This document shows positions 22,879 through 30,618 of a stretch of DNA of 30,618 nucleotides, piece by piece. Position 1 is the first letter of the stretch; the number at the start of each line of letters is the position of its first letter. The notes below the pieces were generated by a model. The model saw nothing but the letters and a program-made list of their open reading frames with translations. It searched no databases and had not been told where the DNA came from. The position numbers and the translations under genes are program-made. Source of the DNA: a virus; the IMG/VR virus record IMGVR_UViG_3300026544_000017, positions 1-30,618 of that record, one strand, 5' to 3'.

Positions 22879-23127
22879 ATGAAGTACTTAATGTGTGCCA
22901 TTTTAACTATGCTTATTGCTGGGTGCGGGGTATCGCCAAAGGCACGGGTGCTTCGTGTCGAGATCTACACAGACCATGCGAAGATCACCGACATCTCAGT
23001 GCAGGCTCCGAGGGATTCCACTGGGGTAAAGGCTTCAGTTGTTCCGATCAAAGCCGAGGCTTCGGTAATCGAGGCGAAGTGTGGATGCGAAGAAGCATCC
23101 AACGCTCCACCCCCATTAAGCCCCTAG
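22879..23127 (+). CDS. Small lipoprotein
   Basis: 82 residues with a short Lys-led hydrophobic start and a lipobox (LIAGC, Cys16) for signal peptidase II, giving a mature protein of 67 residues tethered to a membrane. The C-terminus is Pro-rich (APPPLSP) with a CGC motif. It may be a superinfection-exclusion lipoprotein like those of T5-type phages, or an outer-membrane spanin subunit. No inner-membrane spanin partner or endolysin is nearby, so neither is established. It is the last late gene and its stop overlaps that of the minus-strand gene. Confidence 0.7.
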   Translation: MKYLMCAILTMLIAGCGVSPKARVLRVEIYTDHAKITDISVQAPRDSTGVKASVVPIKAEASVIEAKCGCEEASNAPPPLSP

Positions 23128-23651
23128 GATTGTTCCATCATTTCTGCCAGCGTAATTGTCCTCTTACCGAGGGCATTTATTTCGCCGTTCTTTTTGTGCC
23201 TCCAAACGGTGGGGGCGAATGTTTTTGCGAACAGTTTTTCTGGAACAATCTTCTGCACGTACCAGCCGAGGTCATCATACACCACCTTCTGAATGGCTGA
23301 GAAATATTTGGCATCATGAAACATGGAGCCAGACCCCTTGACATCTATAATAATTCTATTCACAGCATTCATATCAATAGACTTCTCGAATACCTTCGCA
23401 ATCTCAGGTGCGTTTTCCTCGATGAGTCTATCAAAAGAGAAGGTGAAGTCGGGCGTGTAAACCAGCGGGTTAAGCAGGTGCTTCTCCACCATATTTATTT
23501 TCGTTTTAAGCTGAACCGCTTTCTTGTATGTCTGCTTCGGGCAGATCTCAAACTTGCATTCCTCATACTCCACATCATATACAAGCCCAGCCTCGTCAAG
23601 TTCCATCAGCCAGTCATAGAACATCTCCTCTTCTTTACTTCTGAATTTCAT
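23124..23651 (-). CDS. PD-(D/E)XK nuclease, DUF1064-like
   Basis: 175 residues. The pattern of an early Glu pair (residues 7-8), YTPDF (Asp68) and IIIDVKG (Asp103, Lys105) is the PD-(D/E)XK nuclease active site. The following YFSAIQKVVYDDLGWYVQKIVP matches the tail of Holliday-resolvase-like DUF1064/VRR-type phage nucleases. ATG 23651 is preferred because AAGGAG sits five bases before it, whereas the GTG at 23657 would overlap that site. It could resolve recombination intermediates before packaging or degrade host DNA. It is the last gene of the early operon. Confidence 0.75.
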   Translation of the reverse strand: MKFRSKEEEMFYDWLMELDEAGLVYDVEYEECKFEICPKQTYKKAVQLKTKINMVEKHLLNPLVYTPDFTFSFDRLIEENAPEIAKVFEKSIDMNAVNRIIIDVKGSGSMFHDAKYFSAIQKVVYDDLGWYVQKIVPEKLFAKTFAPTVWRHKKNGEINALGKRTITLAEMMEQS

Positions 23652-23832
23652 TTTCACTCCTTAATTTTCTCTCATACTCTCGCTCTACCATTCCAGCTGG
23701 AAGGTAAGACGTATCGTTTACGTTGCAGGAAATAAAGTAATACCTTTCCTTTCCACCAACCATAAGCACACCAGAAACCGTACCCCATTTAAGCACGGTT
23801 CCCATTGGAACTATTGATTCAGACTCACTCAT
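23635..23832 (-). CDS. Small unknown protein (65 aa)
   Basis: 65 residues. A short beta section (GTVLKWGTVSGVLMVGG ... YYFISCNV) is followed by a charged helix (MVEREYERKLRSENEIQK). Ribosome binding site GGGAGAAACAA. ATGA overlap with the preceding gene and a 17-base overlap with the nuclease gene put it in the same transcription unit. No family recognised. The leader and first codons resemble those of the gene before it. Confidence 0.6.
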   Translation of the reverse strand: MSESESIVPMGTVLKWGTVSGVLMVGGKERYYFISCNVNDTSYLPAGMVEREYERKLRSENEIQK

Positions 23833-24038: not shown

Positions 24039-24430
24039 TTGTCTCTCCATGCCTTACAGCTTGGATAACATTTTTCGTCAAAACTCTTTCCAGTCATCAG
24101 CCTGTACTCATCATCGAACTCTTTCATTATCCGCACAGCAATGCCTTCGGTTGGCTTTTCACCCAGCAGTTCCTCCTGCTTATCATTAAGGCAGTGAGTG
24201 TACCAGACAGCCTTGTCATCTCCTTCCTTTATCATTGGCACAACAAAGAAGTACCCGCCACCGTCTGAGTTATCCGAAACCACAAGGACAGGTGCGCCAT
24301 CGTCTCCATAAAATATAATACCGCCGTGAATGTATTCACACGTATTCGGCGTTGACCTTTGTTTTGCACCAACAAAATCATCCGAGTCGATGAACTCGAA
24401 CTCCTTACCGCTTTGAAACTTTATCTTCAT
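24035..24430 (-). CDS. Unknown early protein (131 aa)
   Basis: 131 residues. It opens with a beta strand pattern (MKIKFQSGKEFEFIDSDD) and has GGIIFYGDDGAPVLVVSDNS and a helical, charged C-terminus (FDDEYRLMTGKSFDEKC). No motif recognised. GGAGAGGGTT precedes the start. It overlaps the HNH gene by four bases and the Cys-rich gene by four bases, so all are coupled. Confidence 0.6.
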   Translation of the reverse strand: MKIKFQSGKEFEFIDSDDFVGAKQRSTPNTCEYIHGGIIFYGDDGAPVLVVSDNSDGGGYFFVVPMIKEGDDKAVWYTHCLNDKQEELLGEKPTEGIAVRIMKEFDDEYRLMTGKSFDEKCYPSCKAWRDK

Positions 24431-24717
24431 AACCCTCTCCTATAATTATTCTCGTATTTAATTTTTCTTGCTTCAAGATCCGATGCAAGAACCTCCATCT
24501 CTTTGTTCACGGCTGATGAGTAATGTGCTTTGCCGTGACACTCACGACACAAACCTATCAGGTTTTCAATCACGTCGAGCTTTTTGCTTCCGCCCATGCC
24601 TTTTGATCGGACATGATGGATGTCAACAACCGTTCGCCTCCCGCAATACTCACAAACAATTTGCAGATCTTCTGGAATATCAAAGAATTCCTTGTACACT
24701 TTTTTATTCTTAACCAT
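24427..24717 (-). CDS. HNH endonuclease
   Basis: 96 residues. Two CxxC pairs (22/25 and 57/60) frame DIHHVRSKGMGG (His34/35), Asn52 and CHGKAH (His61, His65). This is a complete HNH motif with a zinc ribbon. Such small free-standing HNH proteins in phage operons can be packaging-related, homing or host-attacking nucleases. With the terminase at the far end it is less likely to be the packaging HNH. The start overlaps the previous stop by eight bases and has only a weak ribosome binding site. Confidence 0.85.
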   Translation of the reverse strand: MVKNKKVYKEFFDIPEDLQIVCEYCGRRTVVDIHHVRSKGMGGSKKLDVIENLIGLCRECHGKAHYSSAVNKEMEVLASDLEARKIKYENNYRRGL

Positions 24718-25156: not shown

Positions 25157-25332
25157 CCATCCTCCTTTGCTTTTTCCAAGAAAATACCCTCGTACTTTAG
25201 GTATTCATCAAACGATAAGCTTATTGAGCATTGCGCAAAGTGTACCCTCGAAATTCTAAAGCTCTCAGCAAGATCATTCTTCTTTGACCTCCCGTAAGCC
25301 GCCCAATCTACATTTTTGAAAGCATCACACAT
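25153..25332 (-). CDS. Small unknown protein (59 aa)
   Basis: 59 residues with a short helical repeat (SRVHFAQCSISLSFDEYLKY). AGGAGG seven bases before ATG 25332 supports this start over the GTG at 25335. It overlaps both neighbours by three or four bases. No family recognised. Confidence 0.55.
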   Translation of the reverse strand: MCDAFKNVDWAAYGRSKKNDLAESFRISRVHFAQCSISLSFDEYLKYEGIFLEKAKEDG

Positions 25333-25772
25333 CACTCATCCTCCTTAAATTCCATATCCACAAAGTGAAGAATGTCTCCATTGAAGGACATGATATCTTT
25401 TTTTACAGTCGGGAAAAACCACATAATAAAATCATCAGCGTTTAATCCGTCGTTGCTTGCGAGTCTTATTATCTCATGCCGTCCGCGCAACACCCTGCTT
25501 GGCACTGCGCCAGAAACAACCCCGCCATCATTCACCAAGGTTATTCCCTCAAGTCTGAGCTTACATCGAGCAAACTCAATCTGCTTACTTGCGTATGGCT
25601 TTCCGCTCCAGTACCTCATGCTAACAAGATCACCATCTTTGAAATGTTTCTTTGTGTTTGCCCGAATGGTGTGCGTCTTCATCCCATCCTTCATCGACTG
25701 AATGAAGTGCGTCGGATCTCCAGCCCGTGGGTGGGACTTTGGAAATGTTCTACTAAATAATAATGCTTTCAT
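25332..25772 (-). CDS. ASCH-like domain protein
   Basis: 146 residues. KTHTIRANTKKHFKDGDLVSMR and then YWSGKPYASKQIEFA resemble the conserved HTIR/G-D-xx and KPY patterns of the ASCH/PUA-like fold, which binds RNA or nucleic acids. FSRTFPKSHPRAGDPT at the start also fits related phage proteins. Start behind AGGAAAC. Adjacent to the previous stop. Target unknown; ASCH proteins are also seen in ribosome or defence contexts, so this is a family-level guess. Confidence 0.6.
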   Translation of the reverse strand: MKALLFSRTFPKSHPRAGDPTHFIQSMKDGMKTHTIRANTKKHFKDGDLVSMRYWSGKPYASKQIEFARCKLRLEGITLVNDGGVVSGAVPSRVLRGRHEIIRLASNDGLNADDFIMWFFPTVKKDIMSFNGDILHFVDMEFKEDE

Positions 25773-27217: not shown

Positions 27218-28246
27218 TTATTTATCTAATGCTTTGAACTGCTTGTACTGAGAAAGAGTCTTTCCGATCTTGGCGAGCTGGACGAATACGGCGTAAAGAA
27301 TATCGATATCTTTCTTCGTAAAGGACACCGCCGAATACCCACACTTATTCTTTCCGCCAAGGAAAACGATTGTGAATCCGTCCGCCTTCTTCATCTTGGA
27401 GTAGAACGCAAGCTGTAGCATATACTGGATCTTCATTGTCTTTCCAGACTTCCAGTCCACGATGATGTTACCGCGCCTGTCACACGCTGGAGGTGTCGGA
27501 GACTTAACATTCTTCGCCTTGATTAGACCCTTGGCGAACAGGTCGAACCGACCAGCCACTTTGTGCCACACGCTCTTGACCAATCCCTCGATCTCGATAG
27601 GCTCGATGCCATAATCCTTGCAGTAGTTCACCACGCCGACTGGTGTGTCCTCTTCGATGATCCCTGTCTTGAGATAATCCTCGGCACTCTTGTGAATCGC
27701 CGTGCCTTTCTTTGTGACCCGATCCATCTTCTTCGCATATAGTTCATAAGACGGTTCAGCCATCCACTTCCAAAGGAACTCAGGAAGCACGAACTCCATT
27801 GTGTTCAGCAGACCAGAGATCTTTGTTGCGCGATTGTACTTCTCTCCATCGATCTCATAGTGAGCGGACGTTTGTGTCACGTTAATCTCGATCACAATAG
27901 ATCCGATGTATCCTTTGTGATTATCATTCCATGTTCCATCGATAACATTCAGGTTCGTATCATATTCCGCATAGGAATAATCAACAACTTTTCCCTTCAC
28001 ATCCTCACCAGATTTCATTGCACCGATTACCGCTTCTCTTTCAGCTGAACCTTTTGGCAGATATCCGATGAACAACTTGCCGATCCATACCTGCACGGCA
28101 TTTGCATCGTTATACATAGGGATTGTTGGGTGGATAAACGGAATGTGTTTAAACATTACCTCTGCATTTTTTGGACGCAGAGTCTTTATTTCATCATTTT
28201 CCTTTACTCGAAAGGTTATACCAGTTACTTTGCTTATTAACTTCAT
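27218..28246 (-). CDS. HIRAN-like domain fused to RecB/Cas4-type PD-(D/E)XK nuclease
   Basis: 342 residues. Residues about 30-100 contain PMYNDANAVQVWIGKLFIGYLP, the core pattern of HIRAN domains ('NP.D.NAI.V...G..IGY.P'), known in HLTF/Rad5 for binding DNA ends. Residues 181-282 hold a RecB-family nuclease core: GTAIHKSAED (His185), GRFDLF (Asp235), VDWKSGK (Asp264, Lys266) and YMLQLAFY (Gln278, Tyr282). All catalytic positions are present and no four-Cys iron-sulphur cluster is obvious. Next to an SSB gene it is likely the recombination exonuclease of the phage. AAGGAGAAG precedes the ATG. The HIRAN assignment is by pattern only. Confidence 0.78.
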   Translation of the reverse strand: MKLISKVTGITFRVKENDEIKTLRPKNAEVMFKHIPFIHPTIPMYNDANAVQVWIGKLFIGYLPKGSAEREAVIGAMKSGEDVKGKVVDYSYAEYDTNLNVIDGTWNDNHKGYIGSIVIEINVTQTSAHYEIDGEKYNRATKISGLLNTMEFVLPEFLWKWMAEPSYELYAKKMDRVTKKGTAIHKSAEDYLKTGIIEEDTPVGVVNYCKDYGIEPIEIEGLVKSVWHKVAGRFDLFAKGLIKAKNVKSPTPPACDRRGNIIVDWKSGKTMKIQYMLQLAFYSKMKKADGFTIVFLGGKNKCGYSAVSFTKKDIDILYAVFVQLAKIGKTLSQYKQFKALDK

Positions 28247-28279
28247 GGGGTTACTTCTCCTTGTTGTTTGTGATGCTTC

Positions 28280-28310
28280 CCCCTCTCTCTTAATTGAGGG
28301 AGGGGTTTTT
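28280..28310 (+). terminator. Plus-strand intrinsic terminator inside minus-strand operon
   Basis: CCCCTCTCTC (28280-28289), loop TTAATT, GAGGGAGGGG (28296-28305) and five T residues (28306-28310). On the plus-strand RNA the single imperfect position is a G-U pair, while on the minus strand it is a C-A mismatch and there is no T-tract. The element therefore acts on rightward transcription, opposite to the genes around it. Confidence 0.7.
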
Positions 28311-28323
28311 AATTTACTATCTA

Positions 28324-29019
28324 CTAAAATGGAATCTCGTCATCGTCTTCTTCAGGCACAGCACAATATGTTGTCCTTAATAGATTTACGAACGTTTCCT
28401 TATTCTTTCCGCTGTTGTTCCAAGCCACCGTTATCTCAGCCATGCGCACACCTTTTGCTTTCAGTGCATCACCAAGACCAGCCTCGGTAATTATCGAGCC
28501 GATGATATCCTTGTCACTCAAACCACTTCCTTTCTGCTCCTCATGATTCTTTGTGGACGACTTAATGAACGGCAGAAATTTCTCGACGGCGATCTTCAGG
28601 CACAGTTCGGCAAGCTTCTCAGACGAATCAACTTCTGGCGGTGCAGAATTTACGAGAGCAACTGCAAGCTTCAGAGACTCAAGCTCATTGTTTGCCCGAT
28701 ACCCTCCGCCCTTCGAGTACCCACCACCACCACCACCGTAACTTGACTTGGAGTATATCTCTGGGTTGTTTGCCTTCTTGATAGAGTAAAAGACATTGCC
28801 TTGATACTCTCCCTTTTCTCCGACCACGGTAAGCCCTTCCTTGATCTTCGTATAAGATTCGTTTCCGTAGATCTTACACGAGAACGAATCCTCAATACCG
28901 TCAACCGTTCCAGCACAGGGGATGGTGTAGCACTTGATTTCTTTTCCGTCTGCACCAGAGAACGAAGTGTCGAGGTGATTTCCAACAGTCTTTATCACCA
29001 ATGTATGTTTTGTAGCCAT
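28324..29019 (-). CDS. ssb: Single-stranded DNA-binding protein-like
   Basis: 231 residues. An N-terminal beta-rich domain (about 1-95, with SCKIYGNESYTKIKEGLTVVG and QGNVFYSIKK like OB-fold strands) is followed by a Gly-rich linker (YGGGGGGYSKGGGY), an extra helical domain of about 100 residues and a classic acidic SSB tip (EEDDDEIPF). The tip is the docking peptide for SSB partners. The helical insertion between linker and tip is not usual for bacterial SSB and is unique by eye. Start behind GGAGAAACAAA. It is part of the replication and recombination group with the helicase and the HIRAN nuclease. Confidence 0.75.
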   Translation of the reverse strand: MATKHTLVIKTVGNHLDTSFSGADGKEIKCYTIPCAGTVDGIEDSFSCKIYGNESYTKIKEGLTVVGEKGEYQGNVFYSIKKANNPEIYSKSSYGGGGGGYSKGGGYRANNELESLKLAVALVNSAPPEVDSSEKLAELCLKIAVEKFLPFIKSSTKNHEEQKGSGLSDKDIIGSIITEAGLGDALKAKGVRMAEITVAWNNSGKNKETFVNLLRTTYCAVPEEDDDEIPF

Positions 29020-29232: not shown

Positions 29233-29586
29233 TTACTCTCCTTGTTGTTGTTTTTTATTTGCTTTGTTGTCGAGTACTATACTCTTACCATTCTTTTTGT
29301 CAACCACTTCTTTTACTTTTTTTCCTACTATTTCTAGCACCATCTTTTTACACCTCCTCATCTCAAGAGTTGCGCTATGATATAGCATCGTTTTGCACGA
29401 TGTCTTCTTAGATCCTTCAATCTTAAATCGAGACCGCAACCATTCAAGCGTGATGCCATTGCTCTCCTGATACTCTCTCAGCAGTTTGCACAATGCAATG
29501 ACCGCGACCTTTTTGTGATACTCGCAATCATCGATGGTTTTTAAAACCTCCTTCTCTGCTTCATCGATAATATTAGAAAGGCACAT
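29233..29586 (-). CDS. Small basic unknown protein (117 aa)
   Basis: 117 residues, helical with a very basic C-terminus (VKEVVDKKNGKS ... NKKQQQGE). Cys residues at several positions but no pairs. ATG 29586 lies nine bases from the AGGAGG repeat that forms part of the end of the helicase gene, so start overlaps the helicase by 14 bases. A longer frame to 29736 would lie wholly inside the helicase gene and is rejected. Possible replication accessory by position only. Confidence 0.55.
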   Translation of the reverse strand: MCLSNIIDEAEKEVLKTIDDCEYHKKVAVIALCKLLREYQESNGITLEWLRSRFKIEGSKKTSCKTMLYHSATLEMRRCKKMVLEIVGKKVKEVVDKKNGKSIVLDNKANKKQQQGE

Positions 29587-30618
29587 TGTCTTCATCCTCC
29601 TCCTCGTTCCGCAACCCTTCCAGTCGGTGGTTCGTTGATCGAGACTGCGCGGTGCAGGAGAACTCATAATACTTTCCCTCCCACCCAAGCTCTGCGGAAA
29701 AACCACTGTCACCGTTTGAGTTTTTATTAAACCCAAGATGTTTTATATCTGGATAATCTTCATCATGGTTCAGCCCGACCGTCATTGTCGATGACTCCTC
29801 AATTGCTCCACTACCCTTGGCAGAATTCAAACCTGCTTCTTCCTTCCTTCCGATTTGGGAAACAATAATCACAACGCAATCCAATTCTTTTGCAAGAACC
29901 TTTGCACTAACTGCATTGTGTGTGATGCGGGTGTAGTCGGACACGTTCCCGTACCCCTCCTCCATCTTCATCAGCTGAATATAATCTATCACGATAATTC
30001 TTGCTCGTTCACCAGTGACCAATGGCAAAGCCCGCGCCTGCTTTCTGATATACTTTATGTCGGCAAGAGCATTGTCATCCACGTAGATGTGGTCAATAGC
30101 CCTCGTACACTGAGGCTCACCATTCATGATGGATTGTTTCAGCGCATCAAACTCAATCCTGTTTGATAAGATAAGATTTCTTTCCACCATTTTTCTTGCG
30201 GACAACTCAAGCGAGAACCACAGCACGGGATGCTCGTTGTACTCCTTCGCTATCAGCTGGGTGAATGCTGTCTTGCCTGCTCCTGTCGGGGCATTAACTA
30301 CCAGCACATCACCACCGACGAGCGGACGAACTTCAAACGGCTGAAGAACAGGGAAGATTTCCTTCAAGTCCACTCCACCATTCTCCCAACTCTCGTAAGC
30401 AAACTTCAAATCAGCGAGTGCGGTCTGCGCGGTAACACACCCAATCCTCACACCCTTCATCCATCGAGGGGCAAGGTTTGCCAGAACACTTATCTCTGCT
30501 TGCGGGTCTAGGTCACGCTCGATCAGATGCTCATCGATCCAGTCGGCTACATCATACTTGTCTTCATACTCACCCTCTGGAAACATATCGAGAACTCTTA
30601 TGCTTCTTGCGTTATCGG
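29573..30618 (-). CDS. DnaB-like replicative helicase / primase-helicase (5' end outside window)
   Basis: The visible part has 347 codons and is open to the window edge. Walker A (NAPTGAGKT, about residues 108-116 from the edge), Walker B (IIVIDYIQLM), a SQIGRKEE segment, GSGAIEESSTM and KNSNGDSG are the RecA-fold motifs of DnaB-family helicases. Before them, the piece DNARSIRVLDMFPEGEY then YDVADWIDEHL resembles the end of a Toprim domain, so the full protein is probably a primase-helicase of the T7 gp4 type. The ATG at 30586 is internal. The C-terminus ends NEEEDEDNVPF, like an SSB tip. Confidence 0.85.
   Translation of the reverse strand, partial: DNARSIRVLDMFPEGEYEDKYDVADWIDEHLIERDLDPQAEISVLANLAPRWMKGVRIGCVTAQTALADLKFAYESWENGGVDLKEIFPVLQPFEVRPLVGGDVLVVNAPTGAGKTAFTQLIAKEYNEHPVLWFSLELSARKMVERNLILSNRIEFDALKQSIMNGEPQCTRAIDHIYVDDNALADIKYIRKQARALPLVTGERARIIVIDYIQLMKMEEGYGNVSDYTRITHNAVSAKVLAKELDCVVIIVSQIGRKEEAGLNSAKGSGAIEESSTMTVGLNHDEDYPDIKHLGFNKNSNGDSGFSAELGWEGKYYEFSCTAQSRSTNHRLEGLRNEEEDEDNVPF

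Follow-up and report, generated by a model that had tools for sequence, protein, structure and literature searches.

Replication-gene neighbourhood of P0001

An IMG/VR virus contig of 30,618 bases makes up the entire window. Its minus strand carries a replication module with genes for a helicase resembling DnaB, a putative SSB, the 342-residue protein P0001, an HNH endonuclease and a resolvase-like protein. The reading frame of P0001 begins with an ATG at 28246 and ends with a stop codon at 27218. The relevant features are:

27218..28246 (including the stop codon), minus strand: P0001, HIRAN plus RecB/MGME1-like nuclease, 342 aa (open reading frame and full-length relatives)
28257..28262, minus strand: Shine-Dalgarno sequence AAGGAG, 10 nt before the P0001 ATG (sequence)
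28324..29019, minus strand: putative SSB-like protein with Gly-rich linker and the tail EEDDDEIPF (layout only)
29573..30586, minus strand: DnaB-like helicase (PF03796, 5e-28; phrog_19, 8.5e-39)
24427..24717, minus strand: HNH endonuclease (PF01844, 4.3e-9)
23124..23657, minus strand: Holliday-junction-resolvase-like protein (phrog_190, 2.3e-5)

The gene adjoining P0001 had previously been taken to encode an SSB. The layout of its product (28324-29019) is indeed SSB-like and suggests such a function, whereas comparisons with protein families, PDB structures and phage proteins returned no match. The C-terminal sequence of the DnaB-like helicase (29573-30586), EEEDEDNVPF, is an acidic tip of the SSB type, which seems unusual on a DnaB-like protein; used as a query, the helicase retrieved no kin contig. 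A hairpin of the form CCCCTCCCTC-AATTAA-GAGAGAGGGGG, lacking a T-run, lies at 28279-28305 on the minus strand, between the stop codon of the SSB-like gene and the P0001 gene. The same strand also encodes an ASCH/DUF3850-like protein at 25332-25772 (phrog_8581, 1.3e-21).

Two-domain architecture of P0001

Based on sequence comparisons and structural modelling, our analysis confirmed that P0001 combines the two parts proposed in the earlier note, a HIRAN domain and a PD-(D/E)XK nuclease of the RecB type; they occupy residues 1-125 and 133-336, respectively. These domains and their motifs are arranged as follows:

27872..28246, minus strand: HIRAN domain, residues 1-125, OB-like fold (model compared with 3k2y/4xzg; relatives match PF08797)
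28052..28120, minus strand: HIRAN signature PMYNDANAV...IGYLPK, residues 43-65 (alignment of 10 members)
27911..27931, minus strand: motif specific to this family, W106-N-x-x-H110-x-G112, close to where the HIRAN domain ends (W, N, H and G invariant in 10/10)
27239..27850, minus strand: PD-(D/E)XK nuclease domain, residues 133-336 (phrog_298 match; MGME1 fold match)
27401..27706, minus strand: catalytic motifs GxxxH185, E220, GxxD235, D264-W-K266 and Q278hxxY282, residues 181-282 (alignment)

When P0001 was searched as a single sequence against viral contigs, species genomes, plasmids and phages, no close relative was retrieved. Weak matches to phage proteins (E up to 10) were confined to the nuclease part, starting around residue 134, and the front part of these proteins is too short to hold a HIRAN domain. 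With a self-written HIRAN consensus as the query, the virus contigs yielded 29 loci. In four of them (L020 and the near-identical L035, L036 and L037), a single chain holds a HIRAN domain and, behind it, a nuclease. Searches from these relatives added L051 and then L053, L054, L055, L058 and L061, so that ten virus contigs, three of them nearly identical, encode proteins of the full HIRAN-nuclease layout; longer stretches around L035-L037 are referred to as L047-L049. Nine of these ten relatives were aligned with P0001 to give the ten-member alignment used below. L035 matches P0001 over 323 aligned columns in a pairwise comparison (E 1e-23) and passes both curated Pfam cut-offs (HIRAN, 33.9 bits; PDDEXK_1, 22.7 bits). 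A tblastn search of the phage collection with three family members revealed no such fusion in cultured phages. An Algoriphagus contig (L050) was rejected as a full-layout relative, as it encodes the nuclease without HIRAN. Another virus contig (L018:2420-4366) encodes a 648-residue protein in which HIRAN (1e-14) is fused to a DEAD/RecQ-like helicase.

Since Pfam does not recognise HIRAN in P0001 alone at E<=1, the assignment of its HIRAN domain rests largely on its relatives. Pfam HIRAN (PF08797) matches nine of the ten members, with a best value of 7.6e-11, and a profile of the relatives (P0001 excluded) aligned in hhalign with a HIRAN-only profile, derived from proteins lacking this nuclease, at an E value of 6e-19. 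When compared with PDB sequences, the family profile retrieved 3k2y, a HIRAN-like protein from a bacterium, first (E 0.0048), followed by HLTF HIRAN entries (~0.5). Both parts of P0001 are in turn linked to the family, scoring 53.2 bits (residues 1-130) and 58.6 bits (residues 131-342) against an HMM of the nine relatives from which P0001 was excluded; the best of 4,000 shuffled sequences reached 8.4 bits. A second HMM, representing the HIRAN domains of proteins that lack this nuclease, gave 19.3 bits for residues 1-130, compared with 14.1 and 9.2 bits for the two best shuffles. The HIRAN pattern recognised previously is found at residues 45-51 (YNDANAV) and 60-64 (IGYLP); within the signature, D47, N49, A50, V51, G61 and P64 are invariant in all ten members and K65 is present in nine.

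Structure prediction with AlphaFold failed when P0001 was used as a single sequence (pLDDT 34), so that a usable model depends on the inclusion of relatives, among them two HIRAN-only rows. The model obtained with this alignment (mean pLDDT 71.8, pTM 0.52) has moderate confidence and therefore bears on the fold of each domain rather than on their placement relative to each other. In it, residues 1-125 are predicted to adopt the OB-like HIRAN fold that the earlier note had anticipated, superimposing on 3k2y (Z 11.4, rmsd 2.2, 96 aligned residues) as well as on the HIRAN domains of HLTF (Z 9.0-9.4; 4xzg, Z 9.4) and Rad5 (Z 8.5). Thus neither of the two outcomes that the earlier note named as counting against HIRAN, a lack of profile hits and a different fold, was observed. 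It could be argued that the N-terminal part has an OB fold of some other origin, its likeness to HIRAN having arisen by chance, given that OB folds are common and that P0001 on its own goes unrecognised by the Pfam model. We regard this explanation as highly improbable, because full-length homologues are HIRAN proteins by Pfam, because the profile comparison described above gave an E value of 6e-19, and because the structures matching residues 1-130 are exclusively those of HIRAN domains (3k2y, HLTF and Rad5).

The modelled nuclease part likewise appears to have a RecB-type fold. Residues 133-335 match human MGME1 (5zyt) with a Z score of 15.1 over 162 aligned residues, followed by Cas4, LHK-Exo, Dna2, RecE and lambda exonuclease, and Foldseek gave results in agreement. 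At the sequence level, P0001 matches the PHROGs family phrog_298 ('exonuclease') over residues 136-287 (E 1.4e-12). Its own match to Pfam PDDEXK_1 lies below threshold, while this model recognises 10/10 members of the family (best 6.3e-5). The PD-(D/E)XK core, described earlier as intact between residues 181 and 282, proved to be so, with motifs running from G181 to Y282: H185 (motif Ia), E220 (I), D235 (II), D264-W265-K266 (III) and Q278-L-A-F-Y282 (IV) are invariant in all ten members. The corresponding set in MGME1 comprises His180, Glu223, Asp238, Asp251-Trp252-Lys253 and QhxxY (PMC6237815). By contrast, the additional label 'Cas4-type' turned out to be too specific. Cas4 proteins are defined by four conserved cysteines that hold an Fe-S cluster (PMC4176176), whereas P0001 has three scattered cysteines (residues 209, 255 and 302) and no column of the ten-member alignment contains Cys in at least seven sequences. 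The absence of the Fe-S cysteines rules out a Cas4 identity and makes the nuclease MGME1/RecB-like. Two further candidate identities were discarded: a FAN1-like HIRAN-VRR-Nuc protein, given that none of the ten members matches VRR_NUC (E<=1) and that the RecB motifs Ia and IV are present, and an HLTF/Rad5-type protein, for which an SNF2 ATPase and a RING domain are expected while Pfam shows no helicase or RING match.

Known counterparts and origin of the fusion

According to its abstract, the 2006 paper that defined HIRAN reportedly described the domain as stand-alone in bacteria and prophages and, in eukaryotes, as fused to a nuclease of the restriction-endonuclease fold. P0001 shares elements with several proteins of these and other kinds. 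The mitochondrial RecB-type exonuclease MGME1 of humans has the same fold as residues 133-336 and the same motifs Ia, I, II, III and IV (PMC6237815), but it lacks a HIRAN domain and shows only 13% identity to P0001, whose own nuclease activity is a prediction. HLTF and Rad5 have in common with P0001 the HIRAN fold and the signature DxNA(V/I)...G(Y/H)xxK; unlike them, P0001 contains neither an SNF2 ATPase nor a RING domain, and its HIRAN domain is joined to a nuclease rather than to a motor. A similar overall plan is seen in the plant HIRAN-VRR-Nuc proteins (KIAA1018/FAN1-like), which also combine HIRAN with a nuclease of the PD-(D/E)XK superfamily in one chain (PMC5704218), although these eukaryotic proteins use a different branch of the superfamily and possess extra zinc finger and TPR parts. 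Among phage proteins, the phrog_298 exonucleases of Agrobacterium phage OLIVR5, Pseudomonas phage Cygsa01 and Rhizobium phage AF3 share the nuclease domain and its motifs but have no HIRAN in front, whereas the phages DLP4, AXL1, A1432 and PaMx28, like the virus studied here, carry HIRAN in their replication region, yet as a small separate protein, with a Cas4-superfamily nuclease encoded by a separate gene. Finally, a 318-residue viral protein (BFVD A0A516LKX2) matches P0001 over nearly its full length in Foldseek (E 1e-23, 27% identity). The earlier suggestion of an undescribed architecture thus holds for the RecB/MGME1-type combination, of which we found no description in the searchable literature, and fails for HIRAN-nuclease fusions in general, as the HIRAN-VRR-Nuc arrangement has been described in plants. 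What looks new is the fusion of HIRAN to a RecB/MGME1-type nuclease in phages; the HIRAN-VRR-Nuc fusion and stand-alone phage HIRAN proteins were already known.

Codon-based comparisons indicate purifying selection on the HIRAN part: the four pairs with the least saturation have dN/dS values of 0.075-0.21, no higher than in the nuclease part, and a fifth pair, which is nearly saturated, has a value of 0.33. When the nucleases were placed in a tree, L020 clustered with exonucleases of Gordonia and Mycobacterium phages that have no HIRAN, while the other nine HIRAN-bearing nucleases come together with weak support (60/71). The hypothesis that all nucleases carrying HIRAN form a single clade is rejected (AU p 0.0002), the tree and the test both being based on short, divergent sequences. 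The fusion therefore appears to have had two or more origins, although repeated loss of HIRAN may provide an alternative explanation for this pattern. Two apparently independent fusion events suggest that the coupling of the two domains is useful, and that it may represent a phage counterpart to the eukaryotic use of HIRAN in fork repair. Two relatives of the L020 nuclease that lack HIRAN, TZGordon gp47 (L062) and Gaia gp102 (L063), possess a different N-terminal part (SGTIPVAQYANVTPSFDVEADT...).

Possible roles of P0001

We consider it probable that P0001 is a two-domain phage nuclease that serves as an end-directed single-strand exonuclease of the replication/recombination module, with HIRAN acting as a gripper of ssDNA or DNA ends. 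The HIRAN domain would bind ssDNA, probably at or near the 3' terminus, and bring the enzyme to single-stranded ends or flaps arising from the phage replisome, where the RecB-type, metal-dependent core would trim or resect the DNA, leaving ends that are ready for recombination or clean replication intermediates. The arrangement of the two domains, the completeness of the catalytic motifs, the conservation of HIRAN and nuclease alike and the location among replication genes are what the data show, whereas activity, polarity, 3'-end specificity and partners are inferred. The HIRAN domain of human HLTF grips free DNA ends, and its residues D94 and K113 contact the 3' end. In that protein, a dinucleotide lies between Y72 and Y93 (PMC4666394), whose positions correspond by alignment to F12 and N46 of P0001. 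The Y93 position is occupied by Tyr in the nine other members and by Asn only in P0001; with Asn46 replacing a residue that borders the DNA pocket, the pocket of P0001 may differ from that of HLTF. Moreover, because the HIRAN domain of Rad5 binds ssDNA without a preference for a 3'-OH (PMC7804152), a 3'-end specificity of P0001 is put forward here as a hypothesis.

More tentatively, it is tempting to speculate that HIRAN constitutes a built-in 3'-end clamp which gives an MGME1-like single-strand exonuclease its strand polarity, thereby allowing one small protein to recognise and resect ends without a helicase, and that phages have assembled this combination at least twice. In such an arrangement, HIRAN would keep hold of the strand with the 3'-OH and leave the 5' strand to be degraded by the core, or else the 3' end would be fed in.

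Somewhat less probable still, by analogy with Rad5, whose HIRAN domain binds PCNA and is indifferent to a 3'-OH (PMC7804152), is a role of HIRAN mainly as a protein-docking module that would tether the nuclease to the replisome, with DNA-end binding being secondary. Asn46 in place of the pocket Tyr and the replication genes surrounding P0001 would be in line with docking, whereas the invariance of D47, G61 and P64, together with the retention of K65 in 9/10 members, argues against it, as does the lack of a recognisable phage sliding clamp gene in the contig.

The gene order in the relatives bears on the pathway in which the end-directed exonuclease favoured here would act. It comprises the HIRAN nuclease, a DnaD-like loader (phrog_11233, phrog_6493), DnaB, an SSB-like protein with the C-terminal end D(I/V)PF and an HNH-like protein. 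Nuclease relatives without HIRAN adjoin RecT or are located near ERF or UvsY, which fits a role in recombination; the contig of P0001, which is possibly incomplete, showed no recognisable single-strand annealing protein. The placement of the gene inside a replication module, in the window as well as in the relatives, speaks against a nuclease directed at the DNA of the host or of a competitor, during host takeover or superinfection, with HIRAN sensing stalled or damaged ends. Bacterial gene clusters with a predicted defence role do contain HIRAN genes (PMC11706625), and in the relatives the HIRAN part has matches to the candidate-defence profiles PDC-M03B, the best with an E value of 2.2e-7. 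However, this similarity is limited to the HIRAN stretch and P0001 itself has no PADLOC match, so that we regard such a role as unlikely.

Prokaryotic HIRAN domains were still termed uncharacterised in 2024 (PMC11090510). The fusion of such a domain to an exonuclease with intact motifs offers a direct read-out of what it recognises, in that the cutting of free versus end-blocked substrates would reveal the HIRAN target. As a separate observation on the neighbourhood, six of the loci (L047, L051, L054, L055, L058 and L061) have in common a gene for a lysozyme-like protein of ~125 aa, located a short way upstream of the HIRAN nuclease.
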